A stretch of DNA of 40,298 bases from an uncultured Verrucomicrobiota bacterium (lineage in GTDB: Bacteria; Verrucomicrobiota; Verrucomicrobiia; Opitutales; Opitutaceae): the NCBI GenBank assembly GCA_903898675.1, contig CAIUGM010000019.1, positions 1 through 40,298 on the forward strand. Reading direction: 5' to 3'. This document shows positions 17,258-35,485 of the stretch, piece by piece. Within the stretch, counting starts at the first letter, position 1. Each line of letters begins with the position of its first letter. The position numbers and the translations under genes were made by a program. A model generated the notes under the pieces. The model saw nothing but the letters and a program-made list of their open reading frames with translations, ran no database searches and was not told where the DNA came from.

Positions 17258-20200
17258 TCAGGCGGCGGGCTTGAAGCTGCGCCACTGGGCCAGCGGGAGG
17301 CTCGTGACGACGATGAAGGCGAGCTGGCTGGCGACGAAGATCAGGAGCCACCAGAAGGCGGCGTCAATGAAACCGTAGCTGTGCAGGCCGACGCCAAGCA
17401 TGTTGACGCCAAACCAGCTCCACGCCGTGACGATGTTGCCGAAGATCGCCAGGGCCATCAGACCCCGGGCCTTCACCATGCCACCCCAGCGCGCGTGCAA
17501 AATGAGGGCGTTCCACAAAACGATGATCAGCGCACCGTTCTCCTTCGGGTCCCAGCCCCAGAAGCGGCCCCAGGACTGGTCGGCCCAGATGCCGCCGAGC
17601 ACGGTCCCGACAAAGCTGAGGACCGTCGCGAAGCAGACCACCCCGTACACCATCCGGTTGAGCGAGTCGGCGGTCGCGGCATCCAACGATTTCGTGAACA
17701 CGCCCCGCACCACGTAGATCAGCGCGAGAAAGCCCGCGAGGAACGTGGCCGAGTAGCCGAGTGTCACGGTGACGACGTGGGTCGCCAGCCAGAAGTTTGA
17801 GTCGAGCACGGCCCGCATCATCTCGAGCGTGTCGCCGCCGAGCGCCAGGTGGTGCGCAATGAGCAGCGTGGCGAAACCGATCAGGCCCGCCGCCACGCTC
17901 CCGATGGCATTCTTGTACGTCACCTCCAGCACGAGGCAGAGCGCCACCGCGGCCCAGCCGATGAAGAGCGCGGAGGAGTAGAGGTTCGTGACCGGCGGCC
18001 GGCCTTCGAGCCACATGCGCGTCGCGATGCCGGCTGTCGCCAACACCCACGCGAGGGCGATGAGCCAGAGCGCGGAGCGCCCGAGTACCTCGGGCCACTT
18101 GAGCCAGGAAAAGACCGCGAGCAGGAACGCCACCACGTAGATCATCATGCTCGTGTAGAACGGCTGCGCGGCATTGAAGCGCGCCTCAAGGTCGACTTTC
18201 GACAGGAAGGCGGGGATCTCGCGCTCGAGCCCGGCGCGGTAGTCATGGATGAGCGCATTGAAGGCCGCCGGCTGGTTGTCCCGCCACGCGAGGCCGAGGC
18301 CGACGAAAGTTGCCGTACCCGCATCGAGACGTCCGCGATCCATGCTGGCCCGCAAGGCGGCTCCGGCATTCATCCAGCCTCTGGCGTCCGTCTTGCCCGT
18401 CTCCGGGGGGATCGGCCGGAGATAACCCAAGGTCTCGAGGCTGGAAAAAGTGTTGCTCAAATCGAGCAGGGCCTTGGCGGCGACCGCGTCGAATGGCTGG
18501 CCGGCCTGCCGGGCCTTCACAGCCGCCAGTCCGGCCGGCACCGTCTCGTTGAAGTGGGACAGCAGGCCCAGATAATCGTCCACGCCGGGGGCGATGAGGC
18601 TGTCCCCCAAGCTCTCGTAGAGCACGACATTGTCGCGCAACTGGATCACGGCCCGCTGAAAGGAATTGCGCAGCGCCGATTCAACCTCGTCGGCGAGCTT
18701 GGACTGCCGGTCCAGTTCGGGGATGCCCTTGACGAGCTGGGCAAAGCTGAACCGCTTCTTCCCCGCCCCGTCCTCCGGCGTGAGGTTGAAGAGCGTCAGC
18801 ACATCCGGGTGCACAATCTCGAACACCTGGTAGGAATTCGCGAGCTCGGGATGATAGAGTACGTCCAGCAGCCACTCGGCCGGGCTGATCGTTCGCCCGT
18901 CGGGCGCAGTGATGCGCTGGCGGCCCTGCAGCACCAGCAGCGTGGTGCGGGCGACTGTGTCGAGCGGCTTGATCCGGCCGTTGACGAGCGTCGGCAACCG
19001 GCCGAATCCGGCCAGGTCGAAATCACTCTTGGGCTGAGGGGGAAACAAGGAGACGGCCACGGCCACGGCCGTGCAGACAAAAATCGCCCAAGGCACTATT
19101 CCCGCGGCCGTCCAGCGGGCGCCCGCCGCCGACTTTGTTGGCGTACTCCCTGACGGCCCCTGTCGTTGGGTAGACTGCGGGCTGGGAGCCGCAAGATGAC
19201 GGCGTTTGCCGATGAAGCCGACCAGATGCATCCCGAATTGCAGGACCAGGCCGAGGGTCATCACGCCGCAGGCGATGTACGGGATGAGCCAGCTCGGGTT
19301 GCGGACGACCTGCAGCACCGTGGTCATGTCGTTGTTCTGAAAGCCCGCCTGGTAGAACGTGAGCCCGGCATAGCGCAGCGGGTTGTTCATGTAGATCAGC
19401 ACGTCGCGGTCGTCCTTGCCATCGGGGGTCGTCAGGCGGAGGCGGCTGGAAAAATTCTTCGGAATGTCGGTGCCGGCGTAGCGGTCGTGGCTGAATTTGA
19501 GCAGCGTAAGCGAGTACGGCTGGTAGTGGCGCGCGAAGCGCAGGGCAATTTTCCAGGTGTGGCCGCCGAAGGTGAAGCGCTGCGGGTCGTCGAGGAAGGG
19601 CGACACGAGCCACGTGCCGATCACGCCGTCCGGGCCGGTCAGCTCGACGTAGGCGGCGGGAATATTGCGCTCATCCTGCTTGTAGGTGAGCGGCTGGGCC
19701 GTGGCCAGGATCTGCGGGCCGACGCCCTGGGTGGCGGCGGTCGGCACCGCGGCGGCCGCGGCCGGCGCCATCTGCAGGGAGGCGTTGGGCAGGTAATTTT
19801 TCACCGCGACCCGGAACGGCAGCTTGGGGTGCTGGACCGTCTCCTTCCGCACGAGCGAACCCTCGGGAATGGCGACGACGTCGTCGAACTGCGGGTCGGT
19901 CGTGTCGGTGATCGCCAGCTCCACGTTGCGGTAGCTCTCGGAGAAATTCTTCGTCTGCCCCTGGTCGAGGCGCAGCTGGTACTCGTCCTGCATGAGGCCG
20001 GTCATGAGCTGGCCGACCAGCAGGAGGATGAGGCCGGCGTGAACGAACCAGATGCCGAGCTTCCGCCAGGTGAGCTTGAAGCGGTAGAAATGCGCCGCGA
20101 GGAGGTTGACCAGGAGGAGCCCGCCGATCGTGTAGCCGCCCGGGAAGATCGCGAGGGACATGTTGCCCGTCTTCCAGTACACCACGAAGGTGTTGAAGTA

Positions 20201-20341
20201 CTTTTGCTGCACCACCCAGATGCCGAGGTTCACCTGGTCGAGCGTCGCGACCAGAATCAGGATGATGGAAAACAGGATCAGTGCGACCGTCAGCTTGAGC
20301 GAGACGATCAGGTCGCGGGCGTCGCGGAGTAAGTTGGCCAT
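17258..20341 (-). CDS. ccsBA: CcsB-CcsA (ResB-ResC) fused cytochrome c synthase
   Basis: This is the system II cytochrome c maturation machine: it moves heme across the inner membrane and attaches it to CxxCH motifs. From the ATG at 20341 it has 1027 residues. The N-terminal ResB half (about 1-410) has four hydrophobic spans (near 12-34, 55-75, 80-100 and 385-405) with a periplasmic domain. The C-terminal CcsA half has the tryptophan-rich WWD motif, seen as WADQSWGRFWGWDPKENGA (WGWD at about 928). Candidate heme-ligand His are in AHHLALGG, THVVTVTLG and LHSYGF. Between the halves lies an unusually long soluble insert (about 470-720). It follows a lipoprotein gene by 5 bp. Confidence 0.93.
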   Translation of the reverse strand: MANLLRDARDLIVSLKLTVALILFSIILILVATLDQVNLGIWVVQQKYFNTFVVYWKTGNMSLAIFPGGYTIGGLLLVNLLAAHFYRFKLTWRKLGIWFVHAGLILLLVGQLMTGLMQDEYQLRLDQGQTKNFSESYRNVELAITDTTDPQFDDVVAIPEGSLVRKETVQHPKLPFRVAVKNYLPNASLQMAPAAAAAVPTAATQGVGPQILATAQPLTYKQDERNIPAAYVELTGPDGVIGTWLVSPFLDDPQRFTFGGHTWKIALRFARHYQPYSLTLLKFSHDRYAGTDIPKNFSSRLRLTTPDGKDDRDVLIYMNNPLRYAGLTFYQAGFQNNDMTTVLQVVRNPSWLIPYIACGVMTLGLVLQFGMHLVGFIGKRRHLAAPSPQSTQRQGPSGSTPTKSAAGARWTAAGIVPWAIFVCTAVAVAVSLFPPQPKSDFDLAGFGRLPTLVNGRIKPLDTVARTTLLVLQGRQRITAPDGRTISPAEWLLDVLYHPELANSYQVFEIVHPDVLTLFNLTPEDGAGKKRFSFAQLVKGIPELDRQSKLADEVESALRNSFQRAVIQLRDNVVLYESLGDSLIAPGVDDYLGLLSHFNETVPAGLAAVKARQAGQPFDAVAAKALLDLSNTFSSLETLGYLRPIPPETGKTDARGWMNAGAALRASMDRGRLDAGTATFVGLGLAWRDNQPAAFNALIHDYRAGLEREIPAFLSKVDLEARFNAAQPFYTSMMIYVVAFLLAVFSWLKWPEVLGRSALWLIALAWVLATAGIATRMWLEGRPPVTNLYSSALFIGWAAVALCLVLEVTYKNAIGSVAAGLIGFATLLIAHHLALGGDTLEMMRAVLDSNFWLATHVVTVTLGYSATFLAGFLALIYVVRGVFTKSLDAATADSLNRMVYGVVCFATVLSFVGTVLGGIWADQSWGRFWGWDPKENGALIIVLWNALILHARWGGMVKARGLMALAIFGNIVTAWSWFGVNMLGVGLHSYGFIDAAFWWLLIFVASQLAFIVVTSLPLAQWRSFKPAA

Positions 20342-20346
20342 GGTGA

Positions 20347-21450
20347 TCAGGGCGCTTGGAGGGTTTGCACGAGGGCGAGGAAGGAAGCCTGTTCCTTCGC
20401 CACCAGGGCCGCCGGGCCGGTGAACTTGAAAAACCAATTGGCGCCGTTGCTCGGCACGATGGCCCCGAGCAGCCGCACGGGCTGGCCGGCGGGGCCGCCG
20501 GTGATGTCCACCAGCGTGACCGCCAGGCCGTTGACCGTCTGGCGCGTGATCGCGCCGGCGAGCTCCGCCTCGGCAATCGGCGGCAGTTGCAGCTGGCCGC
20601 GCCAGCGGTTGACGTTGGCGAGTTCGCCCCCGACCGAACCAGGGAACGCGGTCACGGCGAGCTCGGCGGACGTGCCGTCGTCGCCGGTGACGGCATAGGT
20701 CGCCTTGCGCATGCCGGAGGCGGGCTTGCTCTGCCATTGCGGCGGCGCCACCCACTTGAGCTCGGGGCCGTCGGCCTTGGTCACGGGAATGTCACTCATG
20801 GCGGGAACCGGCGGGGTGAACGTCACCGGAGCCGCGGGCCCGGCGGACGCGCCGGCGGACGGCTTCACCGTCTGCAGGAACTCGAGGTAGGAGGACTTTC
20901 CCTTCGCCACGAGGGCGTCCGGGCCGGTGAGCTTGAAGAACCAGGTGGCGCCATCAAACGGGACGATGGCACCGAGCATGCGCTGCGGTTTCTGCGGCGT
21001 GCCGCCGGCGAGGTCGACGACCTGCATTTTCAGTCCGTTGGCTTCCAAGGGAGTCAAGGCCGCCGCGAGTTCGCTCTCGGCGATGGGCGGGAGGTCCAGC
21101 TGGCTGCGCCAGCGGTTGACGTTGGCCAGGTCGCCGCCGACGTTGCCCGGGAAGGCGGTGATCGCCATGTCGGCGCCCTTCTCGTCTTCGCCGATGGTGT
21201 AGCTGCCCTTGCGCATCGAGGACTTGGCCTTGGGTTTCCATTCGGCGGGCGCGGTCCATTCAAGCGCGGCCCCGGCCTTGGCAAAGACCATGGCCGGCTT
21301 GGCGGCATCAGCGCCGGCGGGGGGCGTCGCGGCGGTCGTGGGCGCTTCGGTTTCCTTGGGGATCCGGTAGGTCGCGACCTTGGCGTCACGGCAGGCCGCG
21401 AGCAGCAGAGGGAGCGAGAGCAGCAGCGCGCGGAGCAGGCGGGGCGTCAT
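20347..21450 (-). CDS. Lipoprotein with two tandem copies of one domain, upstream of ccsBA
   Basis: The 367-residue protein has a lipoprotein signal with Cys20 (LLLAAC). It has two homologous modules of about 140 residues (roughly 60-200 and 228-367). Shared landmarks are MRK-x-Y, AVTAFPG/AITAFPG with VGG-x-LANVNRWR, QLxLPPIAExELA, LLGAIVP/MLGAIVP and WFFKxTGP. Their order is the same in both copies, so an internal duplication is clear. I do not recognise the family. Its stop is 5 bp before the ccsBA start, so the two are co-transcribed and it may help cytochrome c assembly in the periplasm. No Cys other than the lipobox is present, which argues against a thiol-redox role. Confidence 0.8.
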   Translation of the reverse strand: MTPRLLRALLLSLPLLLAACRDAKVATYRIPKETEAPTTAATPPAGADAAKPAMVFAKAGAALEWTAPAEWKPKAKSSMRKGSYTIGEDEKGADMAITAFPGNVGGDLANVNRWRSQLDLPPIAESELAAALTPLEANGLKMQVVDLAGGTPQKPQRMLGAIVPFDGATWFFKLTGPDALVAKGKSSYLEFLQTVKPSAGASAGPAAPVTFTPPVPAMSDIPVTKADGPELKWVAPPQWQSKPASGMRKATYAVTGDDGTSAELAVTAFPGSVGGELANVNRWRGQLQLPPIAEAELAGAITRQTVNGLAVTLVDITGGPAGQPVRLLGAIVPSNGANWFFKFTGPAALVAKEQASFLALVQTLQAP

Positions 21451-21914: not shown

Positions 21915-22253
21915 ATGAAACTCAGCACTAAAATCACCACAGCCAGTCTCGTTCTGTTTTTTGGCGCCGCCCTCGGTTTCGCGGCTCCCGTCTCGGAAAA
22001 TTGGGAAAACCTCTGCACCAAGTGCCACGGCGCCGACGGCAAGGGCCTGACCAAGGTCGGCAAGAAACTTCAGCTCAAGGACTACACCGACGCCAAGGTG
22101 CAGGCCGAGATGAAGGACGAAGACATTTTCAAAACCATCAGCGACGGTGTCACCGACAAGGCCGGCAAAGAGAAGATGAAGGCCTACAAGGCCGAACTAT
22201 CCGCGGACGAGATCAAGGATCTGGCCGCCTACGTCCGTAAGTTCAAAGCCTGA
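21915..22253 (+). CDS. Small periplasmic monoheme cytochrome c
   Basis: The 112-residue product has a signal peptide (about 1-23, ending GAALGFAA) and a class I cytochrome c domain with the heme site CTKCH and a C-terminal helix (AAYVRKFK). The distal Met ligand is probably in EKMKAYK. It would carry single electrons in the periplasm. It is clearly paralogous to the cytochrome at 35486-35815, sharing CHG-x-DGKG, the TDAK-x-QA stretch and AYVR. It precedes the seven-heme membrane cytochrome by 98 bp. A start at 21867 is possible but lacks a signal peptide. Confidence 0.92.
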   Translation: MKLSTKITTASLVLFFGAALGFAAPVSENWENLCTKCHGADGKGLTKVGKKLQLKDYTDAKVQAEMKDEDIFKTISDGVTDKAGKEKMKAYKAELSADEIKDLAAYVRKFKA

Positions 22254-22351
22254 CGCCCGCCTCCGCCCAACCCACGCCAACCGGCACGACCCGCAGGGGC
22301 GTGGGCCGTTGACGTGCCGGGGCCTTCCTCCTCCCGCCCACCCGCTCGAAC

Positions 22352-23848
22352 ATGCCTGAGAACACCCCGGTCCCTCCCGCGACGGCGGCCACGCCGAAGT
22401 CGCATTTCAACAATTGGATCAGCGCCATCGGCGGCGTGGTTGCGATGGGGGCGCTGTTCTCGTTCGCCCTGCTGGTCTGGATGGATTTCACGCAGGGGGA
22501 CAAGAATCCCTACCTCGGCATCTTCACCTATATCGTCGCCCCGGGCTTCCTGATCGTGGGCCTGGTGATGGTGTTTTTCGGCGCCTGGGCCCAGCGCCGC
22601 TGGGCGATCAAGCATGCCACGACCGCCCCCGACAAATGGCGGCTGGATTTTTCCAATGCCACGCAGCGCCGCTACCTGGTGTTGTTTGGTCTCGGCGCCC
22701 TCGGCTTCATCATGCTCAGCGCCTTCGGCAGCTATGAGACCTACCACTACTCGGAATCGGTGCAGTTCTGCGGCGAGGTCTGCCACCGGGCGATGAATCC
22801 CGAGTTTGTCGCCTACCAGCGCGGCGCGCACGCGCGCGTCGACTGCGTAGAGTGCCACATCGGCTCCGGCGCGGAGTGGTTCATCAAGGCCAAGATCAAC
22901 GGCACCCACCAGCTGATCGCCTACACCCTCGACAACTACAGCCGGCCCATCGGCACGCCGCTCAAGCAGCTGCGCCCGGCCCAGGACATCTGCGAGAAGT
23001 GCCACTGGCCCGAGAAATTCCACGGCAACATCGACATCAGCTACGACCACACCCTGACCGACAAGGCCAACACCCCGTTCAGCGTGCGCCTGCTCATGCA
23101 CGTGAACACCGCGGGCCCCGGCGGCCAGACCGGCGGCATCCACTGGCACGTCAACCGCAACGAGAAGGTCGAGTACTACGCCACCGATGAGAAGCGCCAG
23201 GACATCCCCTGGATGCGCGTCACCAGCCTGCCGGCCGGCACCTCCCGCGTCTACCGCACGGAAAAATTCATTGGCGAGCCGCCGGCGGACAAGATCCGCA
23301 CGATGGACTGCATGGACTGCCACAACCGCCCGGCCCACGTCTTCCCGACCGCCAACGATGCCGTCGAGAAATCCCTCAACTCCGGCGCCCTGAGCCGCAA
23401 CCTGCCGAACCTCAAGCGCGAGGCCGTCAAGGCCCTGCTGCAGCCAGGGATTGAGACAGCAGAAGCCGCCCCCGCCAAGATCGCGGAGTACCTCAGCGCC
23501 AAGTACGCCGGCGCCCCTGAACTTTCGTCCGCGATCACCGAGGTCCAGCACATCTTCGCCACCACCATCTTCCCCGAGCGCAAGGCCGACTGGCGCGTCT
23601 ACCCGAGCAATATCGGCCACAAGGACTGGCCCGGCTGCTTCCGCTGCCACGACGACAAGCACAAGACGGACAAGGGCCAGGCCGTGAGCGCGAGCGATTG
23701 CAACTCGTGCCATACCATTCTCGCCCAGGGCAAGGGCGCCGAGTTCGAGCTCCTCAACGCGAAGGGCATGGAATTCAAGCACCCCGGCGGCGACCTCGAC
23801 CCCGACCTGACCTGCTCGGATTGCCACAACGGCGGGATCCAGAAGTAA
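22352..23848 (+). CDS. Seven-heme NapC/NirT-family membrane cytochrome, ImcH-like
   Basis: NapC/NirT cytochromes oxidise menaquinol at the inner membrane and pass electrons to periplasmic carriers. The 498-residue protein has three hydrophobic spans (about 23-45, 55-79, 107-125) and then a periplasmic domain. Six CxxCH sites have first Cys at about 165, 214, 320, 429, 450 and 488. One CX3CH site, CGEVCH at 140-145, gives seven hemes in total. This length, heme count and three-helix anchor match Geobacter ImcH, the quinol oxidase used for high-potential acceptors, better than the tetraheme NapC or NrfH. Homology to ImcH itself is inferred from layout, not from an alignment. It follows a monoheme cytochrome by 98 bp. 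Confidence 0.85.
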   Translation: MPENTPVPPATAATPKSHFNNWISAIGGVVAMGALFSFALLVWMDFTQGDKNPYLGIFTYIVAPGFLIVGLVMVFFGAWAQRRWAIKHATTAPDKWRLDFSNATQRRYLVLFGLGALGFIMLSAFGSYETYHYSESVQFCGEVCHRAMNPEFVAYQRGAHARVDCVECHIGSGAEWFIKAKINGTHQLIAYTLDNYSRPIGTPLKQLRPAQDICEKCHWPEKFHGNIDISYDHTLTDKANTPFSVRLLMHVNTAGPGGQTGGIHWHVNRNEKVEYYATDEKRQDIPWMRVTSLPAGTSRVYRTEKFIGEPPADKIRTMDCMDCHNRPAHVFPTANDAVEKSLNSGALSRNLPNLKREAVKALLQPGIETAEAAPAKIAEYLSAKYAGAPELSSAITEVQHIFATTIFPERKADWRVYPSNIGHKDWPGCFRCHDDKHKTDKGQAVSASDCNSCHTILAQGKGAEFELLNAKGMEFKHPGGDLDPDLTCSDCHNGGIQK

Positions 23849-23867
23849 GCGGAGCCGGAGCCGGACT

Positions 23868-24045
23868 TTTAACCACGAAGGGCGCGAAGGTTCACGAAGC
23901 CGGAGAGGTCGGCTACCGGAATCGTCCACCGGTCAGCGTGCATTGGTTCGAACAATGAACGCTGATCATTGAACGATGAGAATTGAACAATCTCCGCCCA
24001 AGGACGGCCTGCTCTCCGTGCCTCTGTGTCTCTGTGGTGAAACAG
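23868..24045 (-). repeat. Repeat block including composite repeat copy 3 (reverse orientation)
   Basis: TTTTAACCACGAAGGGCG starts a short 'ACCACGAAG' block at 23868. From 23932 to 24045 the sequence is the reverse complement of the composite repeat seen at 11675 and 37915. Read on the minus strand it runs from a CCACAGAGACACAGAGGCAC block to a GTTCAATTCTCATCGTTC-type block. It fills the gap between the ImcH-like gene and the convergent small Cys protein gene. Confidence 0.7.
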
Positions 24046-24052
24046 AATTTAT

Positions 24053-24289
24053 TCACTGTCTCCCGCCGGCTGCCGGCTGCTTGCCCGGCGATCCCGCCCC
24101 CGGGTCGAACCACCGGCAGTCGGTCGCGCCGGGCCCCGTGAGTCGCACGGCGCCCAGCCGCCGGCACCAGATATAGTCCGACCCCGGATCCGGCAGGCGG
24201 CGGGCGTAACGGCACTCCGGGCCGCAGGGCGCCAGGGCCCCGATGCCATCGCCAGCGTTGGGGGCGGATGATCCAGTCTCAGGGTCCAT
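24053..24289 (-). CDS. Small four-cysteine protein coupled to the CbcL-like gene
   Basis: The 78-residue reading frame starts inside the last 11 bp of the multiheme cytochrome gene (ATG at 24289, upstream stop at 24281-24279), so its translation is probably coupled. The four Cys are at 22, 26, 42 and 58, spaced X3, X15, X15, in a compact segment (APCGPECRYARRL ... DYIWCRRLGAVRLTGPG ... DCRWF). The regular spacing suggests a bound metal or Fe-S cluster. There is no signal peptide. I do not recognise the family. It could be an assembly factor or small electron carrier for the cytochrome complex; it could also be a chance frame, although the Cys pattern and overlap argue for a gene. Confidence 0.55.
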   Translation of the reverse strand: MDPETGSSAPNAGDGIGALAPCGPECRYARRLPDPGSDYIWCRRLGAVRLTGPGATDCRWFDPGAGSPGKQPAAGGRQ

Positions 24290-26576
24290 GGTTTGGCTGG
24301 GTTCGGTCGCCCGGGCTTGAGGGCGGCGCGGCCGGATCGACCTTCAATCCGGTTGCCCGCGCAGCCTCCGCCGCCTTCTGGCGCGCCAGCTCGAGCGGAT
24401 GCTCCTCCAGCATTTCCTCCTCGGACATGCGGCCGGTCAGCCACGCCAGGTTCATGGGGTAGATGTCCGGGTTGAAGATCACGAAGTAGAAATGCCAGAC
24501 GATGATCGCGAGCGTCGCGAGGATGGCCTCGTAGAAGTGGATCGTCCGCGAGATGTCGAAGCCGAGCTTGGTAAACAACCCGAGCGAGGTGTTGTCGAAC
24601 CACAGGATCGCCCCGGTCAGGCCCATCAGGATCGAGCCCCACATCATGGCCCAGTACTCGGCCTTCTCGATGTAGCTGAAGCGGGGGAACGCCGGCTTGG
24701 TCGGCGCGAAGCCCAGGTTGTATTTCATCACCGCCAGCGGATCGGTGACGTCGCGCCAGCGCGGCAGCAGGTCGCGAAACAGGGCCCGGCCCGGTTGGGT
24801 GAAGGCGAGGTAGGAAAAATGCCACAGCCCCGACGCCACCAGCACGACCCCCGCGAGGCGGTGGCTCAGGCTCCGCCACTCGAAGGCCCGGACGCTGAGA
24901 TTGCGGATCGCCACCACCCACCACGCCTCGGGAAAGCGCAGCATAAAGCCGGTCACGACCAGGAGCGTGAAGCTGAGCACGAGCACCCCGTGCTGCAGCC
25001 GCTCATGGAGCGTCATCCGGAGATACAGCCGGTGCGCCACGTGCGCGGGCTCGATCAGTCCCTGCTGGATCGCGAGCTTCCGGCGGATCTTCTTCAGCAG
25101 GTCCAGGGCGTTGTGCACGACCATGCCGCCGGCCACGACGATGATCACCAGCACATAGATGCTCGAGATCAGGTACAGGATCGGGCTGCTGCCGTCCCCG
25201 CCGCCGGCGGTTTCGGGGCTGACGTGCACCTTGCCGACCGCAAACCGCTGGTTGGCCCCGGGGTGGCACTGGCCGCAGGTCTGGACGAGGTTGGCCTGGT
25301 TGACCGTGGAGGTCGGGTCGGTCTGCGACTTGATCGCGTGCGCGCTGTGGCAGCTGGCGCAATTCACGACCGCGACCGCGCCGCCGCGGTCCGCGAGCCC
25401 GTGGTAACTGTCCTCAAAGGTCTGGAACGTGTGCGAGGCCAGCCCGTATTTCCGGGTCAGCTTCAGCGAGGCATGGCACGTGGCGCAGACCTGCCGGGAG
25501 ACATTGCTGGCGTACACGGGCGAAGTGGCGTCCTTGTGGCCGCGGATGTCGTGCTCGCCGTGGCAGTCGGTGCACGTGGCCGAGTCGGCGTTGCCCTTGC
25601 GCAGGGCGCCGGCGTGGACGCTGGTGTCGAACGCGGCGGCAACCTTGGCGTGACACTTCGCGCAGGTTTCCGCGACGTGCAGCTTGTTGGTCCGCGCGCT
25701 CCCGATCATCGCCCGGTTCATCTCGTGCGCCCCGTGGCAGTCGACACAGTTGGCCGCCGCCACCTTGCCGGCGAGCAGCGCGGCCCCGTGCACGCTTTGG
25801 TCAAACGAACCGACGAACTTCAACCCGCGCACCGCATGGCCGGCGACACTGTCCTGGCCCACGTGGCACGACTCGCACTGCTTGGTCTGCGCGAGTTTCT
25901 GCGCGAGGGTCAGCTGGGCCGGGGCGGTCGCCACCACGGGCTGCCGGTGACAGGTCAGGCACTCGGGTGCGTTCGCCTCCTTGGCGGCAAAGGCCCGGCC
26001 GTGGGCCGAGGCCGCAAAATGATCCCGCGCCGCCTCGTGGCACTGGCCGCAGGCCGCGGCCTGCGGGCCGTCGTTGAAGGGAAAGGCCGCGCTCTTCACC
26101 GCCGCGACGTCGTGTTTGCCGTGGCAGGTGACGCAGGCCGTGTCCTCACCGGCCGGCACGGGTTGCCGGGCCAGACGGGGATGAAAGGCGTGTTTTTTGG
26201 CCGTCTTCTCGTGGCATGAGGCGCAGTCGACGGCCTTCATCGGCTTCAAGTGCGGCGAGCTGTCGCCATCGAAGCCCTCATGGCAATCGGTGCAATCGAG
26301 CGAGCCATGCGCGGATTTCGCCGTGATTTTCTCATCGACGAAGAGCGACAGCTTGCGGCCGGCCCGCTTGAGTGACAGGGCCGGGTCGCTGTGGCACTCG
26401 AGGCAGCTGGCGGTGGAATTGGGCGCCGGTTTGTCCGGGGCGGCGGCAGCCCCCTCGGCCCCGCGCAGGAGGCCGGCACCCAGGCCGATGAGCGCGGCGC
26501 CGACCAGCCAGCCCCACCGCGGCCCGGTGGGACGGGGCGGAAACGGGATGATGGACGGAAACGGTCGGGTGGACAT
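24279..26576 (-). CDS. 13-heme cytochrome c fused to a b-type cytochrome, CbcL-like
   Basis: From the ATG at 26576 the protein has 765 residues. An N-terminal hydrophobic span (about 21-40) leads to a periplasmic domain with thirteen CxxCH motifs (first Cys at 58, 95, 118, 148, 176, 206, 234, 277, 305, 335, 364, 406, 434). A HydC/FdnI-like membrane domain (about 465-705) with several helices follows, with candidate heme-b His 529, 572, 586, 680 and 695. Geobacter CbcL has the same order (multiheme c, then diheme b) and oxidises menaquinol for low-potential extracellular acceptors; it has nine c-hemes, so this one is larger. Followed by an overlapping small Cys protein and divergent from the MtrA-like gene. 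Confidence 0.88.
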   Translation of the reverse strand: MSTRPFPSIIPFPPRPTGPRWGWLVGAALIGLGAGLLRGAEGAAAAPDKPAPNSTASCLECHSDPALSLKRAGRKLSLFVDEKITAKSAHGSLDCTDCHEGFDGDSSPHLKPMKAVDCASCHEKTAKKHAFHPRLARQPVPAGEDTACVTCHGKHDVAAVKSAAFPFNDGPQAAACGQCHEAARDHFAASAHGRAFAAKEANAPECLTCHRQPVVATAPAQLTLAQKLAQTKQCESCHVGQDSVAGHAVRGLKFVGSFDQSVHGAALLAGKVAAANCVDCHGAHEMNRAMIGSARTNKLHVAETCAKCHAKVAAAFDTSVHAGALRKGNADSATCTDCHGEHDIRGHKDATSPVYASNVSRQVCATCHASLKLTRKYGLASHTFQTFEDSYHGLADRGGAVAVVNCASCHSAHAIKSQTDPTSTVNQANLVQTCGQCHPGANQRFAVGKVHVSPETAGGGDGSSPILYLISSIYVLVIIVVAGGMVVHNALDLLKKIRRKLAIQQGLIEPAHVAHRLYLRMTLHERLQHGVLVLSFTLLVVTGFMLRFPEAWWVVAIRNLSVRAFEWRSLSHRLAGVVLVASGLWHFSYLAFTQPGRALFRDLLPRWRDVTDPLAVMKYNLGFAPTKPAFPRFSYIEKAEYWAMMWGSILMGLTGAILWFDNTSLGLFTKLGFDISRTIHFYEAILATLAIIVWHFYFVIFNPDIYPMNLAWLTGRMSEEEMLEEHPLELARQKAAEAARATGLKVDPAAPPSSPGDRTQPNHGP

Positions 26577-26953
26577 GGGCAAAGGAGATTCCTCACCCCA
26601 AACATAAGTCCGGGACGCCGAAACGTCTTCGCATCCCTTGACGAAACCGGGGCAATTCTTGGCGAGCCTGCGCCGCCCAGGGGGCCGGCTCAGGCCCCGG
26701 GTGGCGATGTCGTGGCCCAGGCTCACGCCACGAAATGCCGCTGAACCGTGAGTTCCGCGCGCCCGAATACTCCCAAGGCCCCGCCGCGCTCTCCGGCTTT
26801 CGCGCCTGTCGGCGCCTGGCCAGATTAAGCAAGAGTTGCACAGGGCTAGGCAAGCCATGCGGAGTCTCTGCGCGGAGAATCCGATAGGATGTTAATGCCG
26901 ACACAGAGACTTTTATAAAAACCACCCCAAGCCCAACCCGCTATTTCACCGCC
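26577..26953. promoter_or_regulatory. Divergent control region between CbcL-like and MtrA-like genes, with TGCGCA-type site
   Basis: This 377-bp gap has no gene. At 26858-26874 stand TGCGGA and TGCGCG, 11 bp apart, 80 bp before the ATG at 26954. A TTAATG (26892-26897) follows by 17 bp as a possible -10, the same geometry as before the monoheme cytochrome at 21915. TTGCACA is at 26836-26842. The site is 282 bp from the start of the CbcL-like gene, so it more likely serves the conduit genes. Confidence 0.5.
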
Positions 26954-27754
26954 ATGACCACCAAGACCCGCTGGACCAAAAATACCCTGATATTCGGAGG
27001 CGTCGCCATCTGGGGCCTGCTCCTGATCTCCTGCGTCACCGTCAATCGTGCGGTGCTCGCCCCTCCCTCCGTGCCCGGCGCGAAGTTCGTCGGCTCCAAG
27101 GAGTGCGCCCAATGCCACGACGACCAGACCTCGCATTTTGGCTCGGCGTCCCACGCCAAGCTGGGACTAAAGGATGACAAGGGCAATGACAGCAGCTGCG
27201 AGGCCTGTCACGGTCCCGGCTCCATCCACGTCAAGGCAGGCGGCGGCAAGGGTAATATCGTCAACCCCCGCAAATCACCCGAGACCTGCTTCCAATGCCA
27301 TCTCGACAAGCGCGGCCAGTTCAGCCTGCCGCACAGCCACCCGGTGCTGGAGGGGCGGATCTCCTGCGTCGACTGCCATGAAGTCCACTCCGGCAATGCC
27401 ATCCGCGGCACTGGCGCCGACCTGGAGGCCCAGAACGAAACCTGCACCAAGTGCCACACCCAGCAGAAGGGTCCGTTTGTCTTCGAGCACGCCGCCCTGA
27501 AGGAAGGCTGCATTTCCTGCCATTCGCCGCACGGCTCGGTCAACCAGAAGATGCTGGTCGCCCGTGACGCCAACCTCTGCCTGCGCTGCCATTTGGAATC
27601 CCCCTCGATCCCCAACGCCGGCCAGATCAATGCGAACGCGATTCTCTCCACGCCCGAGAACCACAATACCCGCCTCATGCAGGGTACCTGCTGGAGCGCC
27701 GGTTGCCACGAGGCGCCGCACGGCTCGAACGTCAACAACCACTTCCGTCGCTGA
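26954..27754 (+). CDS. Eight-heme MtrA/OmaB-like lipoprotein cytochrome c
   Basis: The 266-residue protein has a hydrophobic N-terminus with a lipobox LIS-Cys27, predicting a lipoprotein. Seven CxxCH motifs have first Cys at 51, 82, 112, 138, 164, 186 and 209, and one CX4CH is at 246-252 (CWSAGCH), giving eight predicted hemes. MtrA/DmsE/PioA cytochromes have ten hemes and Geobacter OmaB has eight; they sit inside an outer-membrane barrel and carry electrons across it. The next gene, 21 bp downstream, encodes such a barrel. The lipid anchor and the CX4CH site are unusual. No Shine-Dalgarno (TTTCACCGCC precedes ATG). Confidence 0.87.
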   Translation: MTTKTRWTKNTLIFGGVAIWGLLLISCVTVNRAVLAPPSVPGAKFVGSKECAQCHDDQTSHFGSASHAKLGLKDDKGNDSSCEACHGPGSIHVKAGGGKGNIVNPRKSPETCFQCHLDKRGQFSLPHSHPVLEGRISCVDCHEVHSGNAIRGTGADLEAQNETCTKCHTQQKGPFVFEHAALKEGCISCHSPHGSVNQKMLVARDANLCLRCHLESPSIPNAGQINANAILSTPENHNTRLMQGTCWSAGCHEAPHGSNVNNHFRR

Positions 27755-27775
27755 TCACCCCTAACTAACCCTATC

Positions 27776-29974
27776 ATGCAAGCGATCTATCTTAATTTCC
27801 GCCGCAGTGCCAGCGTGCTGGCCGGGCTCGCCCTTGTCCTGGGTGCCGTCGGGGTCAAAGCCGACCCCACCGCCACCCCCACCAACCAGAGCGACGCGTT
27901 CCCGATCTTCGAGAACTACCTCACCCTCGCCGGCCAGGCTTCTTCGCTATCGGGCGACAAGGCCGCCTTCCAGAGCGTGACCCAACAACCCAAGAGCGGC
28001 TCCCTCGGCATCGAGGACTTCCACTACGGCAAGGATCTCGCGAACAACAAATCGTTGTCGTTCGACGGCCGGGCGATGTCCGGCACCGACGACTATCTGG
28101 GCAAACTGAGCTTCGCCAAGACCGACGTCGGGTCCTTCGAAATGGGTTACAAGACCTTCCGGACCTACTACGACGGCGTCGGCGGTTTTTTCCCGTTGAG
28201 CAATACCTGGCTGCCGATGTCGCCCGAGGGCCTCCACGTCGACCGCGGTTCATTCTGGGTCGAGGGTAAATTGACCCTGCCGAATGCGCCGGCCATCACG
28301 CTCAAGTACACCAATGACACGCGCCGGGGGAAGAAGGATTCCACCATCTGGGGTGACTCCGATTTCACGGGCCTGCCGAACAACAACTCGCCCATCTCAC
28401 AGGTCCGCAAATTCATCCCGAGCTACCTCAAGCTCGACGAACGGCACCAGGCCCTGGAGGCCAGCATGCATCACACGGTCGGCAAGACCAGCGTGCAGGT
28501 CACGCTGCTCGAGGACAAGGTCGACAATCTGGACACCCGGTACGTCACGCGCTTCCCCGGCGAAGTTAAACTCTTCCCGACGCCGGCGGCCACCGTGCGG
28601 GTACCTTCCGCGAACATGAACAATCAGATCGTCCAGGACCAGGTCGATGGCACCAAGGCCAAGACGTTCATGGGCCGGATCAATACCGAGACGGTCCTGA
28701 CGGACAAGGTCAAGCTGCTCGCGGGTTTCAGCTTCCAAGACATCAGCAACGATTTCAGTGGCGACCGTCCGCTCTTTACGAGCACCCCGACCAAGGTGGG
28801 GGTGATCGTCGTGCCGACGAACAACAACCTGAACCTGCTCGGCAACGCCAAGTCCACGATCTACACCGGCAACATCGCGCTGGATACGAAGCCCACCCCA
28901 AATTCAAGCCTCAAGGTGTCGCTGCGGGGCGAGGACAATTACACGAAGGCCCACGGCTCGCTCACCAGCGTGACGGCGGCCGTCAACACGACCACCGGGG
29001 TCGTGACGGTTACCCAGACGCCCCAAGTGGAGTATTCCCGCGTCAAGGAAACCTCCTGGACGCCGGTGCTCGATCTGGGCTACACGGGCTTCTCGAATGT
29101 CTCTCTGTATGCCTCCGGCTCGAAGAGCATGGCCACCGGCGACGAATACTATGCGACGCCCTATGGCACCCCGTCCCCGGCCGCCAGCGCCCTCGCCTAC
29201 AACAATCCCTCGCAGGATCACGCCTACTATAACGTCGGCGCCAACTGGCGCCAATCGAGTTACCTCACCGTCCGGGCGGATCTTTTCTACAAGGATAATT
29301 CCACCAGGTCCACCGGCTACAGCATCGATGTCGGCAACAACTACCAACTCGACACCCAATTCACCGGCGTGAAGTTCTCCGTCATCGTCAAGCCCCTGGC
29401 CACCGTGACCTCCACCAGCCGGCTCGTCTACCAGAAGGGCAAGGCGCAGGTGACCGGTTATCTGGCGACCACGCCGGAGTACGACTCGATGGACGCGAAG
29501 AACTACACGTTCAGCGAGACCGTGGACTGGACCCCGACGGCACAGCTCTATGTCCAGGCCAATGCCAACCTGGTATTCAATGTGATCAGCACCATCTATC
29601 CCCGGGCCGGCACGACCCCGGCAACCGCGACGGCGGTCGCGTTCAGCACCAATGGCGTCCTGCAGAACTCGAACAACAACAACTTCACCGGCAGCCTCCT
29701 GACCGGCGCCGTCCTCACCAAACTGGACGACCTGCAGCTGCAATTGACCTACTACCGGGCCGACAACGGCAACTCCCAGCTGGCGGTGCTGACGATGCCC
29801 TATGGCGTCGTGGCCAAGGAATTTTCCGTCACGGCCGGCTTGAAACACAAGTTTTCCAACCGACTGATCGGTAACCTGAAGGTCGGCTATTACGACAGCC
29901 AGAACGACACGACCGGCGGGCGGACAAACTTCCACGGCCCCCAGGCCTACATGTCGCTCGCCTACGCTTTCTGA
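27776..29974 (+). CDS. MtrB/PioB-like outer-membrane barrel of a porin-cytochrome conduit
   Basis: The 732-residue product has a signal peptide (about 1-28, cleaved after VKA). A long run of amphipathic strands rich in Tyr, Thr, Asn and Gly follows, and the protein ends in LAYAF with a terminal Phe. Length is close to MtrB/OmbB (about 650-750). It has no Cys, unlike MtrB of Shewanella, which carries an N-terminal CxxC. The strongest evidence is its place 21 bp after an MtrA/OmaB-like cytochrome and before a strong terminator. It would sheathe that cytochrome and let electrons pass the outer membrane. A different porin role cannot be excluded from sequence alone. Confidence 0.78.
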   Translation: MQAIYLNFRRSASVLAGLALVLGAVGVKADPTATPTNQSDAFPIFENYLTLAGQASSLSGDKAAFQSVTQQPKSGSLGIEDFHYGKDLANNKSLSFDGRAMSGTDDYLGKLSFAKTDVGSFEMGYKTFRTYYDGVGGFFPLSNTWLPMSPEGLHVDRGSFWVEGKLTLPNAPAITLKYTNDTRRGKKDSTIWGDSDFTGLPNNNSPISQVRKFIPSYLKLDERHQALEASMHHTVGKTSVQVTLLEDKVDNLDTRYVTRFPGEVKLFPTPAATVRVPSANMNNQIVQDQVDGTKAKTFMGRINTETVLTDKVKLLAGFSFQDISNDFSGDRPLFTSTPTKVGVIVVPTNNNLNLLGNAKSTIYTGNIALDTKPTPNSSLKVSLRGEDNYTKAHGSLTSVTAAVNTTTGVVTVTQTPQVEYSRVKETSWTPVLDLGYTGFSNVSLYASGSKSMATGDEYYATPYGTPSPAASALAYNNPSQDHAYYNVGANWRQSSYLTVRADLFYKDNSTRSTGYSIDVGNNYQLDTQFTGVKFSVIVKPLATVTSTSRLVYQKGKAQVTGYLATTPEYDSMDAKNYTFSETVDWTPTAQLYVQANANLVFNVISTIYPRAGTTPATATAVAFSTNGVLQNSNNNNFTGSLLTGAVLTKLDDLQLQLTYYRADNGNSQLAVLTMPYGVVAKEFSVTAGLKHKFSNRLIGNLKVGYYDSQNDTTGGRTNFHGPQAYMSLAYAF

Positions 29975-30028: not shown

Positions 30029-30351
30029 TGCCAGATACAAATGAGATAAACCAAGCCGGATAGACGGAATGTAGCCGGGGTCGCTGACCCTGGATCTGGT
30101 CGATAGAAAAGGCACCGGGGTCAGCGACCCCGGCAACCGTTAAACGCCGGGCGCCACGTGGCGGTTCTCCGCACCGCACCAATATACGCGGAGTCTTGGC
30201 CAAGGGAGCGTTGGCTGGGCGGGATGAATTGGGCGATACTCGGGACGGATTCAGCATGCGCGCCGCCGGATCCCACCCCAAGCCCCAGAGCCCGCCGCGA
30301 CCATCTCACTCCTCATTTGCGCCGGCTGTCACCCGCCGGCCCGTCCTCCAG
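30029..30351. repeat. Gap with a palindromic repeat (family 2)
   Basis: The gap of about 320 bp has no convincing gene. CCGGGGTCGCTGACCC (30075-30090) is inverted perfectly at 30118-30133 with a 27-bp spacer, a REP-like structure with a GGGTCAGCGACCC core. The remainder (30134-30351) has a high-GC frame in phase with the next gene, but no domain and no preferred start. Confidence 0.65.
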
Positions 30352-32016
30352 ATGAACCAGAACCCCGAGACCGCACCGATCGATGCCGTCCGTCGCCTGG
30401 CGCAACTGGAGCAGCGCGTCACTCAGCTCGAGTCCCGACTCGGTTTGGCCGCCGACGCGCCGCCGGCCGAGGCCGTGGCCCGGTGGATACCGGCGGCGAC
30501 CCCGGCCCGGCCGGCCGAGGATGAAATGGAATTTGAAGTCGGGCAGAACTGGTTCGCCCGGGTCGGCATCGTGGTGCTTGCGCTGGGCGCCGGGTTCACG
30601 GTTTCGCTCCCCTTTGCCAGCCTGCCGGCCGTCGTGCCGTCCCTGATCGGCTACGCGCTGGCCGGCGGACTCCTCGTCCTGGCCGCGCTGTGGCGCAATT
30701 CGTTTGAAATGGTCGCGGGGCATTTGCGCGGAGTGGCGATGGCCATGTTCTACTTTGCCACCCTGCGGTTGTATTTCTTCGGTACGCAGCACGTGCTGGG
30801 AACCGACAGCATTACGGGCGGAGCCTTGCTGGGGGTGGTGGTGGCGATCAACCTGACCCTGGCCTACCGGCGTCATTCGGTCTGGCTGCTGGGGCTGGCG
30901 CTGGTGACCGGCTATGTGAGTGCAATCGCCGTCGGCTCCGCCGGTTTTGCCTTGGGGTCGATCCTGTTGCTCGCCGCCCTGGCAGTCTCCGGCAGCCTGC
31001 AGGGCCGTTGGCCCGGCCTTGGCCTGGCCGGCGTGCTTCTCAGCCACACCACCTATCTGCTCTGGGCGGCAAATGACCCGCTCCTCGGCCGGCCGCTTCA
31101 GTTTGTCACCACGCCGGCTCTGGCCCCGGTCATCCTTTTTCTCAGCATCGTGATTTTCGCCACCGGCGCATTGCTGCGGCCGAACCGCCCGGAGGAGGAT
31201 GGGGTCACCAACGCCGGCTCCTTGCTGAACTGTGCGCTCGGCTACGGTGTTTTTCTGGTACACACCCTGCTCGCATTCAAGACCGGCTTCACGACCTACC
31301 ACCTGGCCGCCTCCGGGGTGCTCCTCGCCCTTGCCGTGCTGTTCTGGGTCCGGGACCGCAGCCGGGTCTCGACCTTTGTCTATGCGATGACTGGTTATAT
31401 GGCCCTCAGCCTGGCCATCATCAAGGCCGCCAACGCCCCCGCCGTCTTTGTCTGGCTCTCGGTGCAAAGCGTGGTGGTCGTCGCCACGGCCATCTGGTTC
31501 CGCTCGCGGTTCATCATCGTGGCGAACTTCCTGATCTACGCGTCCATCGTCCTGGCCTACATCTTTGTGGCCGAGCGGGAGACCGGCATCAGCATCGGCT
31601 TCGGGATCGTGGCCCTCGTCAGCGCCCGCATTCTCAACTGGCAGCGCAACCGGCTGGAGTTGAAGACCGAGCTGATGCGGAACGCCTACCTGCTGGGAGC
31701 GTTCGTCGTGTTTCCCTACGCCCTTTACCACCTGGTGCCGGGCCGGTACGTCGGCCTCGCCTGGGTCGGCCTCGCGCTGTTTTACTACGCGATGAACCTC
31801 ATCGTGCGAAACCAGAAGTTCCGCTGGATGGGCCATGCCACCCTGCTGGTCACGTCGCTCTACATCGTGATCGTGGGCACCAGCCGCTTCGGGCCGGTCT
31901 ATCGGGTGCTCTCCTTCCTCGCCCTCGGCACGGTGATGCTGGTCGTCTCCCTGGTCTTCACCCGGCTGCGCAAGCGGCAGCGGGCGGCCGGGGCGGGAGC
32001 CACCGGATCACCCTGA
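30352..32016 (+). CDS. Large multi-pass membrane protein of DUF2339 type
   Basis: The 554-residue protein starts with a short coiled-coil (about 8-30, RRLAQLEQRVTQLESRLG), then a polar linker ending in EMEFEVGQNWFARVG. About fifteen hydrophobic helices follow from residue 66 to near the end (RLRKRQRAAGAG). This layout, a coiled coil and then a WxxRxG segment before many helices, is that of DUF2339 membrane proteins, whose role is unknown. I chose the ATG at 30352; an in-frame upstream start at 30196 adds 52 residues of no clear type. It converges on the cytochrome operon ending at 32032, 15 bp away. Confidence 0.75.
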   Translation: MNQNPETAPIDAVRRLAQLEQRVTQLESRLGLAADAPPAEAVARWIPAATPARPAEDEMEFEVGQNWFARVGIVVLALGAGFTVSLPFASLPAVVPSLIGYALAGGLLVLAALWRNSFEMVAGHLRGVAMAMFYFATLRLYFFGTQHVLGTDSITGGALLGVVVAINLTLAYRRHSVWLLGLALVTGYVSAIAVGSAGFALGSILLLAALAVSGSLQGRWPGLGLAGVLLSHTTYLLWAANDPLLGRPLQFVTTPALAPVILFLSIVIFATGALLRPNRPEEDGVTNAGSLLNCALGYGVFLVHTLLAFKTGFTTYHLAASGVLLALAVLFWVRDRSRVSTFVYAMTGYMALSLAIIKAANAPAVFVWLSVQSVVVVATAIWFRSRFIIVANFLIYASIVLAYIFVAERETGISIGFGIVALVSARILNWQRNRLELKTELMRNAYLLGAFVVFPYALYHLVPGRYVGLAWVGLALFYYAMNLIVRNQKFRWMGHATLLVTSLYIVIVGTSRFGPVYRVLSFLALGTVMLVVSLVFTRLRKRQRAAGAGATGSP

Positions 32017-32031
32017 CACCCGCGGGGCGGT

Positions 32032-32535
32032 TCAACCGCCGCAGCTGCAGCCGCCGCCGCCACATTCGCCCGGCGACGGCAGTGACTCAAGTTCCTCCCC
32101 GCCTCCCAGCTGGTCCGACAAGGCACAGACCCGGTCGTAGTACTCGTCGCGGCCGAGCCCGAGGGCGGCCGCACCAAAAGTCTCCGCCTCCTCGTTCGAC
32201 GCAAACTCACCGTAGTTGAGCGCGACCAGCTGGTAGAGCACCAGGGCCGGAACCTGATCGAGCTGCACCATGAAAAGCGGGTGCACAAACATCGTGAAGC
32301 CATCAGCCGGAGTTTCCCCGGTTGGCACCGGATGGGCAAATTCCCCGGGGTGGAGCGGGCCGGCGTCAAAGCTGACCGTGCAGGGATAACGGACGAAGGC
32401 CCGGTCGGCCAGCAGGAGCTGCAGTTCGCCCCAGCCCAACCCTGGACCATATTTCGCGCAAATCTCGGCTCCCTTCGCCGCCACGTGGGCGGTGAGGGAT
32501 TCCCGGGCGTCTTCCGCGGTGAGTTGTCGGGCCAT
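32032..32535 (-). CDS. Unrecognised protein with Cys-Gly tail, last gene of the NrfD operon
   Basis: From the ATG at 32535 the protein has 167 residues, no signal peptide and no membrane span. It starts MARQLTAEDARESLTAHVAA and ends GECGGGGCSCGG, a Cys/Gly tail that could bind a metal ion. Two more Cys lie at about 26 and 52. I do not recognise the family. It begins 5 bp after the NrfD gene, so it is translated with it and may help assemble or insert cofactors in the membrane complex. Downstream, a short GGCGG/CCGCC hairpin overlaps its end; no T-run follows. Confidence 0.65.
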   Translation of the reverse strand: MARQLTAEDARESLTAHVAAKGAEICAKYGPGLGWGELQLLLADRAFVRYPCTVSFDAGPLHPGEFAHPVPTGETPADGFTMFVHPLFMVQLDQVPALVLYQLVALNYGEFASNEEAETFGAAALGLGRDEYYDRVCALSDQLGGGEELESLPSPGECGGGGCSCGG

Positions 32536-32540
32536 GGCGG

Positions 32541-33821: not shown

Positions 33822-34771
33822 TTGTCGAAGTAGTAGAAGAACCGTGGCGAGGTGCCCATTTCCTCCTTGAGCTGGATGAACACCCGTTTCTCGCGGAGGA
33901 TATAGGAAACCTCGCTGTCCGGATCCAGGATGTTGCCGAATTTGCGGGCGCCGACCGGGCAGACCTCGAGGCAGGCCGGGTAGCGGCCCGCGCGGGTGCG
34001 CTGGATGCAGAAGTGACACTTTTCCATCACGCCCTGCTTGCGCGGCCGGTTGCCGAGATAGGCCATGTTGGGGTTGATCCGCTCCCGGGGAATCTCGGGC
34101 TTGGTGAAATTAAAGCGCCGCGCCCAATACGGGCAGGCCGCCTCGCAGTAGCGGCAACCGATGCACCAGTCGTAGTCGATAACGGTGATGCCGTCTTTTT
34201 CCTGCCAGGTGGCGTTGACCGGGCAGACCTTGACGCACGGCGGGTTCTTGCACTGCTGGCACTGCACCGGCATGTAGAAAAATCCCTTCTCCGGCACCTG
34301 CTTGGCGTCGTAGGTGTGGTCGCCCTTCTCCACGTCCATCGAGCCATGCGGCATCTTGAGCACGCGGATGTACTGGATCTCCGGGTTGCGCGACTGGTTG
34401 TTCTCCGCCACGCAGGCGTGCACGCATTTGCGGCAGCCGATGCAGCGCGTCAGGTTCAGGCAGTAGACAAACTCGACGCCGTCCATCGGCTTGAGATCCC
34501 GTACGTGCGGGCGGAGGCCGTACTGGCGCTGCACCTCGCCCTCGATCCGCGCAATCACCTTGGTCATGTCCTCGGGCGTGAGCTCCTTGTAATATTTCTG
34601 GAGGAACTGCTCCTTCGAGGTGTAGTCGCCCATCTCCCCCATCTCCCGCAACGGCGCCAGGCTCGCCGCAAGGGCCGTCAGGCCGCCGAACGCGGCGCAA
34701 CCGCGGAGAAAATTGCGGCGCGACATCGCGGCGTCGGAGCTCTTGTCAGGCGGGGGAAATGACGGGGACAT
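33818..34771 (-). CDS. Tat-exported Fe-S protein with four [4Fe-4S] clusters
   Basis: The 317-residue protein has a twin-arginine signal (SRRNFLRG at 17-24) and sixteen Cys in four ferredoxin sets. They are 110/113/116/120 (CIGCRKCVHAC), 171/174/179/183, 203/206/209/213 (CIGCRYCEAAC) and 252/255/267/271. This matches NrfC/PsrB/TtrB-type subunits that relay electrons between an NrfD membrane partner and a periplasmic enzyme or cytochrome. The Tat signal places it on the periplasmic side. It starts 2 bp after the stop of the tetraheme cytochrome gene and overlaps the NrfD start by four bases. Confidence 0.93.
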   Translation of the reverse strand: MSPSFPPPDKSSDAAMSRRNFLRGCAAFGGLTALAASLAPLREMGEMGDYTSKEQFLQKYYKELTPEDMTKVIARIEGEVQRQYGLRPHVRDLKPMDGVEFVYCLNLTRCIGCRKCVHACVAENNQSRNPEIQYIRVLKMPHGSMDVEKGDHTYDAKQVPEKGFFYMPVQCQQCKNPPCVKVCPVNATWQEKDGITVIDYDWCIGCRYCEAACPYWARRFNFTKPEIPRERINPNMAYLGNRPRKQGVMEKCHFCIQRTRAGRYPACLEVCPVGARKFGNILDPDSEVSYILREKRVFIQLKEEMGTSPRFFYYFDK

Positions 34772-34772
34772 T

Positions 34773-35444: not shown

Positions 35445-35485
35445 GACAGCAAGGTGTGGGGTTGCGTCGCGCGGGGGCCGCGCGA

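Follow-up and report, generated by a model that had tools for sequence, protein, structure and literature searches.

Octaheme cytochromes encoded together with a novel porin were described by He et al. in 2017 from Verrucomicrobia, including Opitutus terrae, with a proposed role in humic respiration (PMC5615132), and this verrucomicrobial porin–octaheme system was taken up again by He et al. in 2019 (PMC6344600). Zhong and Shi reported four CbcL-type homologues and one ImcH homologue from Verrucomicrobia in 2018, and the accessible text of their survey reports no mtrAB or mtoAB next to imcH (PMC6295460). The MtrAB complex is represented by the structure 6R2Q (PMC10654088); MtrB has 26 strands (PMC7198977), and 26 strands were also modelled for PioB and MtoB (PMC10654088). 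Here, we describe an island of ~14 kb in an Opitutus-like genome, lying in a 40,298-nt stretch of DNA that was analysed as a whole (the window), in which genes for predicted quinol-oxidising modules are linked to the genes of an octaheme cytochrome and a large barrel. We consider it probable, from sequence comparison and structure modelling, that this island provides an Opitutaceae-like bacterium with an outward route for extracellular electron transfer, running from quinol oxidases through monoheme cytochromes to an octaheme protein in the barrel. Menaquinol would be oxidised in the inner membrane by two, probably three, alternative modules (ImcH-type, CbcL-type and a Cbc4-like tetraheme/Fe-S/NrfD module), small monoheme cytochromes would take the electrons across the periplasm, and an octaheme lipoprotein held in a 26-strand MtrB-like barrel would carry them across the outer membrane.

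The initial annotation of this DNA had named five cytochrome and barrel genes within 21915–29974. All five are present there, as borne out by open reading frames (ORFs), heme motifs, Pfam domains and the barrel model; its coordinates omitted a linked minus-strand cluster at 32541–35929, comprising monoheme, tetraheme, Fe-S and NrfD genes, and a cytochrome c biogenesis gene at 17258–20755, also on the minus strand. The cytochrome, barrel and quinol-module genes of the island are as follows.

21915–22253, plus strand: secreted monoheme cytochrome c, putative periplasmic carrier (one CXXCH; PF13442, E 3.9e-10)
22352–23848, plus strand: predicted ImcH-type heptaheme menaquinol oxidase, 498 amino acids (aa) (PF03264, E 2.3e-7, over cut-off)
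~24279–26576, minus strand: CbcL-type cytochrome, 13 CXXCH followed by a C-terminal b561/FdnI-like domain (PF01292, E 2.3e-15, over cut-off)
26954–27754, plus strand: octaheme lipoprotein, MtrA/DmsE lineage, with a predicted position inside the barrel (seven CXXCH and one CX4CH)
27776–29974, plus strand: outer-membrane barrel with a predicted MtrB-like fold, 732 aa, 21 nt downstream of the octaheme gene
32541–33821, minus strand: NrfD/DsrP/CbcU-type integral membrane quinol subunit (PF03916, E 8.2e-38; NCBIfam DsrP model, 425 bits, over the cut-off of 350)
33818–34771, minus strand: multi-[4Fe-4S] subunit, probably exported by the twin-arginine translocation (Tat) route, DsrO/CbcT-like (PF13247, E 4.2e-18)
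34773–35444, minus strand: tetraheme cytochrome c with a CbcS-like layout (four CXXCH; hydropathy peak at 20–38, N-terminal anchor or signal)
35486–35929, minus strand: second monoheme cytochrome c (PF00034, E 5e-12)

Chance origin of this cluster of heme motifs is no concern, because a six-frame scan of the whole 40 kb found CXXCH in just seven stop-to-stop segments longer than 60 aa; six of these are the island cytochrome genes, and the remaining one is a 98-aa frame in which the motif occurs once. The source genome comprises 3.52 Mb in 40 contigs with a completeness of 99.95%. An Opitutaceae-like verrucomicrobium is the best guess for the host, because the ImcH-type protein has its closest named relatives (within the best 80 of 546) in metagenome-assembled genomes of Opitutae and Opitutaceae, where best-segment identity reaches 80%; the earlier guess of a Verrucomicrobiota host was thus right.

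The octaheme cytochrome and its barrel

By sequence comparison, the octaheme lipoprotein is a homologue of MtrA, matching chain 6r2q_A with an E-value of 2.1e-28 as a single sequence and 3e-44 as a profile. In the match table, the molecule name given for this chain is 'Cystathionine beta-synthase'; in the fold search, the title of 6r2q reads 'Structure of the Mtr complex'. The protein also matches the NCBIfam models of the GSU2203-family decaheme cytochromes (E 6.4e-51; 173.4 bits, below the cut-off of 325) and of the DmsE family (E 6.3e-45; 153.7 bits, below the cut-off of 192.2). When the 49 of 62 homologous frames with at least 200 aa were aligned, Cys27 of the lipobox and each of the eight CH dyads were invariant, and the first cysteine of the CX4CH motif, C246, was nearly so. 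The ten hemes of MtrAB, PioAB and MtoAB are therefore not found in this family, in which eight motifs are kept across the 49 homologues. The alignment would fit MtrA hemes 1–2 and 5–10, as if one heme pair were missing.

The barrel was modelled with AlphaFold2 from an alignment of 60 of 61 frames (at least 600 aa; the homologue L063, broken into two frames, was left out), and the model has 26 long strands with a mean predicted local distance difference test score (pLDDT) of 84.8. Its top Foldseek match, first of 756, is chain 6r2q_B, which is MtrB (E 5.8e-12; template modelling (TM) scores 0.55/0.62; root-mean-square deviation 8.1), followed by TonB-dependent receptors and other large barrels with lower TM-scores. 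Because this deviation is high, the likeness to MtrB is support at the level of the fold only. Sequence alone is silent on the kinship of the barrel, since the single-sequence search of the PDB gave one match, to a purine-synthesis protein (E 0.43), and the profile search gave none at E ≤ 1. The barrel likewise has no NCBIfam match and does not belong to Pfam MtrB_PioB, of which no protein in the genome passes the cut-off; across its 60 homologues, ten Pfam families are touched. An unrelated porin was rejected as the identity of the barrel on the MtrB-first fold search, again a fold-level argument, and on the adjacent octaheme gene. The term MtrAB-like, used in the initial annotation, holds in the sense that the pair is predicted to work like MtrAB: it has the MtrA homology, the 26 strands and MtrB as best fold match, and it departs from strict family membership in having eight hemes instead of ten and in failing the Pfam MtrB/PioB model.

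Variants of the barrel were seen elsewhere. A barrel frame carrying one heme motif occurs in 7 of 61 barrel neighbourhoods (L084, L088, L075, L080, L082, L085 and L086); the single frame that was scanned, L084, has a Planctomycete-type cytochrome domain (PSCyt1) fused to its N terminus, and ImcH was not found in the fetched stretch of any of the seven. Separately, a locus from Pyrinomonadaceae (Acidobacteriota; L157:2822–6211) encodes a ten-heme MtrA-like cytochrome and a distantly related barrel, also without a Pfam match, with ImcH ~4 kb downstream, and it is a possible bridge to classical MtrAB.

Inner-membrane modules

The published hallmarks of ImcH are three N-terminal helices, an adjacent atypical CX3CH and six CX2CH motifs in a protein of 495–519 aa in Geobacter and its allies (PMC6295460). 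The protein at 22352–23848 has one CX3CH at residue 140, six CX2CH motifs and three N-terminal hydropathy peaks (23–41, 57–75 and 109–127), and its match to PF03264 is a partial similarity to NapC/NirT and the only match to that family in the genome at E ≤ 0.001. These features support its assignment as ImcH-like by the family's own listed hallmarks, in agreement with the initial annotation. In 30 homologues from the class (30 of 31 frames, at least 440 aa), C140, G141, C144 and H145 of the CX3CH motif are invariant, and among the best 80 of the 546 loci the motif is present in 80 of 82 ImcH frames, the two without it sitting in cut or split genes. Homologues at ~38–44% identity among those 80 come from Ignavibacteriota, Bacteroidota, Acidobacteriota, Calditrichota and others, with no Geobacter locus among them. 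A plasmid search with the ImcH-type protein gave only a partial NapC/NirT match, and one with the CbcL-type protein gave no match.

Members of the CbcL/MtrH/MtoC family are reported to carry 3–23 N-terminal heme motifs and a C-terminal HydC/FdnI-like b cytochrome (PMC6295460). The b domain of the window protein also matches TIGR01583 (E 2.3e-11, below cut-off) and shows four hydropathy peaks above threshold, where the family description has six transmembrane helices. The alignment took in the five best-scoring of 17 frames (at least 600 aa), each of which has 13 hemes. A tree built from 59 homologues (each frame above 150 bits and no shorter than 560 aa) places the 13-heme proteins (n = 12) in one group with support of 99/97 as drawn, consisting of nine Opitutaceae-type rows and one each from Ignavibacteriota, Chlorobiota and Bacteroidota. 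The Bacteroidota member lies directly beside imcH, and the Chlorobiota and Ignavibacteriota members lie within ~4 kb of it. Most 9-heme CbcL proteins from other Verrucomicrobiota fall outside this group and cluster with Acidobacteriota, a pattern that hints at transfer or old paralogy and proves neither. Both the domain layout and the grouping with 13-heme homologues near imcH support the CbcL-like call made initially.

The cluster at 32541–35929 resembles Cbc4 (CbcSTU) of Geobacter, in which a c-type cytochrome, an Fe-S protein and a membrane subunit are encoded together (PMC11434368). The ORF of the Fe-S subunit opens at 34954, with a probable start at 34771; it has a weak match to the Tat-signal model (E 0.025, under cut-off), and its DsrO match of 170.8 bits is below the cut-off of 200. 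The monoheme cytochrome of this cluster is 51% identical to the first one over 90 aa. By analogy with Geobacter, the quinol oxidases may divide acceptors by redox potential.

Distribution, neighbouring genes and alternative readings

A search of 286 genomes of the class found the barrel in 66 (E ≤ 1e-3, some matches partial); in a phylum-wide draw it occurred in 17 of 288 genomes at E ≤ 1e-10, 15 of them in the class and 13 in the family of the window. The neighbourhoods of 60 of the 65 other barrel genomes were fetched (all except G030, G088, G125, G153 and G224), giving 61 with the window, many of them cut by contig ends. The octaheme gene adjoins the barrel gene in 60 of these 61, and the lone exception, L045, ends at a contig edge. 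ImcH (E ≤ 1e-30) was detected in 55 of the 286 genomes, 52 of which also have the barrel, against 12.7 expected with kinship ignored; CbcL-type proteins of all heme numbers, at the same threshold, were detected in 40, with the barrel in 35 against 9.2 expected on the same terms. Within the 61 neighbourhoods, ImcH is encoded in 31, a CbcL-type frame in 17 and both in 14, and the NrfD of the module is encoded in 8. Conversely, the barrel lies within the fetched flanks (up to 10 kb) of 22 of the best 80 ImcH loci of 546 relatives, including one from Omnitrophota and one from Acidobacteriota, the latter with a ten-heme cytochrome and a very divergent barrel.

In 16 of the 61 neighbourhoods, among them L042, L043, L054, L056, L060 and L072, a frame of 503–916 aa with eight or nine hemes stands directly upstream of the octaheme gene; it is a candidate surface cytochrome that is absent from the window.

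Three further genes flank the conduit and the modules.

17258–20755, minus strand: CcsB/Ccs1-type cytochrome c biogenesis fusion, true start inside the ORF (TIGR03144 ccsB, E 5e-36; 124.7 bits, below the cut-off of 187.6)
20347–21450, minus strand: putative lipoprotein whose two halves are repeats, without a Pfam match (E ≤ 0.001), often beside CcsBA
30196–32016, plus strand: DUF2339 membrane protein (PF10101, E 3.1e-10)

Homologues of CcsBA occur in 20 and those of the lipoprotein in 19 of the 61 barrel neighbourhoods, window included. The heme synthesis genes hemN and protoporphyrinogen oxidase are also present in the window alongside the cytochrome biogenesis gene and were counted in favour of the electron transfer route; no evidence ties the DUF2339 protein to the system. 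A small frame with a Gly/Cys-rich tail and no Pfam match (32032–32700) overlaps the end of the NrfD gene, and a UbiE/MenG-type quinone methyltransferase, below model cut-offs, lies near the island (38887–39807). The left half of the window encodes a hydrogenase maturation protease (13245–13835; TIGR00072, over cut-off) and a butyryl-CoA:acetate type CoA-transferase (9720–11021; below cut-off).

Several observations weigh against an outward electron transfer route. Structure prediction, which the initial annotation had proposed for the cytochrome–barrel pair, was informative for the barrel; the octaheme model is too poor (pLDDT 51.6) to check its fit in the barrel. MtrB leads the fold search narrowly by E-value (5.8e-12 versus 9.3e-12 for the siderophore receptor Fiu), although its lead is clearer by TM-score (0.55/0.62 versus 0.45/0.47). 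No Pfam family matches the window barrel at E ≤ 0.01, and its 60 homologues touch Porin_O_P (5, best E 2e-8) more often than MtrB_PioB (3, best E 3.3e-6). ImcH was not detected in 14 of the 66 barrel genomes, and just 3 of the 61 neighbourhoods, the window among them, have all three quinol modules close to the barrel. A pentaheme cytochrome, a 1122-aa Fe-S protein and NrfD form a further cluster in the genome, which we take to be alternative complex III, and because it looks like that complex the host need not depend on the island route. Finally, the island contains no gene for a surface cytochrome. The sole MtrC/MtrF-domain match in the genome is an unlinked eight-heme protein of 662 aa on contig 3 (L183:5572–7557), which reaches 31.9 bits in summed stretches and 22.8 bits as one protein against a cut-off of 30 and is a weak candidate for a surface partner. 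Because the island lacks such a cytochrome, the likely acceptors at the end of the wire would be humic quinones, other shuttles or chelated Fe(III).

The same absence is shared with PioAB and MtoAB (PMC6344600) and suits a reading in which electrons flow inward, from Fe(II), reduced humics or partner cells through the barrel and octaheme to the quinone via the CbcL/MtoC-type protein, as proposed for MtoAB/PioAB; homologues of CbcL/MtoC are, moreover, found in both reducers and oxidisers (PMC6295460). We regard inward flow as unlikely, however, as ImcH, the partner with the tightest co-occurrence (found in 52 of the 66 genomes with the barrel), has so far been reported, in the accessible text of the 2018 survey, only from Fe(III) reducers (PMC6295460).

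A role of the cytochromes with a soluble acceptor in the periplasm (nitrite or a sulfur compound, for example), the barrel being an ordinary porin, appears distinctly improbable. It would accord with the best NCBIfam match of the ImcH-type protein, which is NrfH (E 4.1e-11), with the NrfD-type protein passing the DsrP model and with the five Porin_O_P matches among the barrel homologues. The NrfH match, however, reaches 43.1 bits, far under the cut-off of 134.2, and the octaheme–barrel adjacency in 60 of 61 neighbourhoods and the closeness of the barrel fold to MtrB argue against an ordinary porin. No NrfA was found in the genome, where PF02335 matches, at E ≤ 0.001, nothing but an 84-position stretch of the pentaheme protein on contig 40, in the cluster resembling alternative complex III, and DsrA was not found either. 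Nitrite respiration was rejected on the lack of NrfA and on the sole NapC/NirT-family match in the genome (E ≤ 0.001) being the ImcH-type protein. Sulfate or sulfite reduction was rejected likewise, as no DsrA was found; the DsrMKJOP set, judged from DsrO and DsrP, has a DsrP that passes its model and a DsrO below cut-off. A DmsEFAB-like pathway, in which the conduit feeds a surface terminal enzyme reducing a soluble substrate, draws on the DmsE-family match of the octaheme protein, but that match is under its cut-off and no molybdoenzyme catalytic family was found among the window proteins scanned (part of the ORFs of the window), which makes this pathway highly improbable.

An outward route therefore remains our preferred reading. 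The interpretation given in the initial annotation was mostly right in kind and is partly supported, the direction of electron flow and the acceptor being what we infer. Its reach is extended by the NrfD module, which had been missed, and by the conserved association of the conduit with ImcH, and prior literature reduces its surprise. More tentatively, and short of a claim that we would favour, ImcH and CbcL, and in some genomes a Cbc4-like module, may in many Verrucomicrobiota converge on an eight-heme wire of the MtrA lineage in an MtrB-type barrel that is unrecognisable by sequence, with no linked surface cytochrome. If this is true, sugar-degrading Opitutaceae could use a shared island to discharge electrons to humics at several potentials. 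In soils and humic lakes, Verrucomicrobiota are common degraders of polysaccharides, and such a route would bear on humic and Fe(III) respiration in this group. As one locus links predicted inner-membrane quinol oxidases to an outer-membrane conduit, the proposal leads to testable knockouts.

Comparison with known systems

No description of an island linking quinol modules to such a conduit was found in the open-access literature, judged mostly from listings. The initial annotation had called the gene set notable in such a genome, and this has to be toned down: the octaheme–porin pair had appeared in print by 2017 (PMC5615132), and homologues of ImcH and CbcL by 2018 (PMC6295460). What is new here is the linkage of the quinol modules to the conduit, the apparent MtrA/MtrB kinship and the shortened MtrA-type wire, while the parts themselves are known.

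The closest match is to the clusters of He et al. 2017, which likewise pair a periplasmic cytochrome of eight heme sites with an adjoining porin, predicted to have at least 20 transmembrane motifs (PMC5615132). Set against that description alone, architecture and host group suggest that the island conduit belongs to the same family. Those clusters sometimes add a gene for an extracellular multiheme cytochrome, comparable to the upstream eight- or nine-heme gene noted above (PMC5615132). Their description calls the systems non-homologous to those of Shewanella and Geobacter, whereas the conduit here has an MtrA homologue and MtrB as best fold match, and the cluster description leaves ImcH, CbcL and NrfD modules unmentioned (PMC5615132). 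A conduit called novel in 2017 would thereby be tied back to the MtrAB lineage.

With MtrAB of Shewanella (6R2Q), the island shares a homologous cytochrome, a predicted 26-strand barrel and adjacent genes (PMC7198977). It differs in having eight hemes instead of ten, in the lipid anchor predicted for its cytochrome, in lacking MtrC at the locus and in a barrel sequence below recognition. The minus-strand cluster, likened to Cbc4 of Geobacter by description, has the same three-subunit gene grouping (PMC11434368), and differs in its added monoheme cytochrome gene and in an NrfD subunit that passes the DsrP model. CbcL of Geobacter is alike in domain layout but has nine c hemes, compared with 13 in the window protein (PMC6295460). 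ImcH of Geobacter, likened by its published hallmarks, shares the heme motif pattern and the helices (PMC6295460). The gene context is different, since the island imcH stands near a porin–cytochrome pair whereas the accessible survey text reports no mtrAB or mtoAB beside imcH; unlike that survey, the island would show imcH encoded near a probable outer-membrane partner (PMC6295460).

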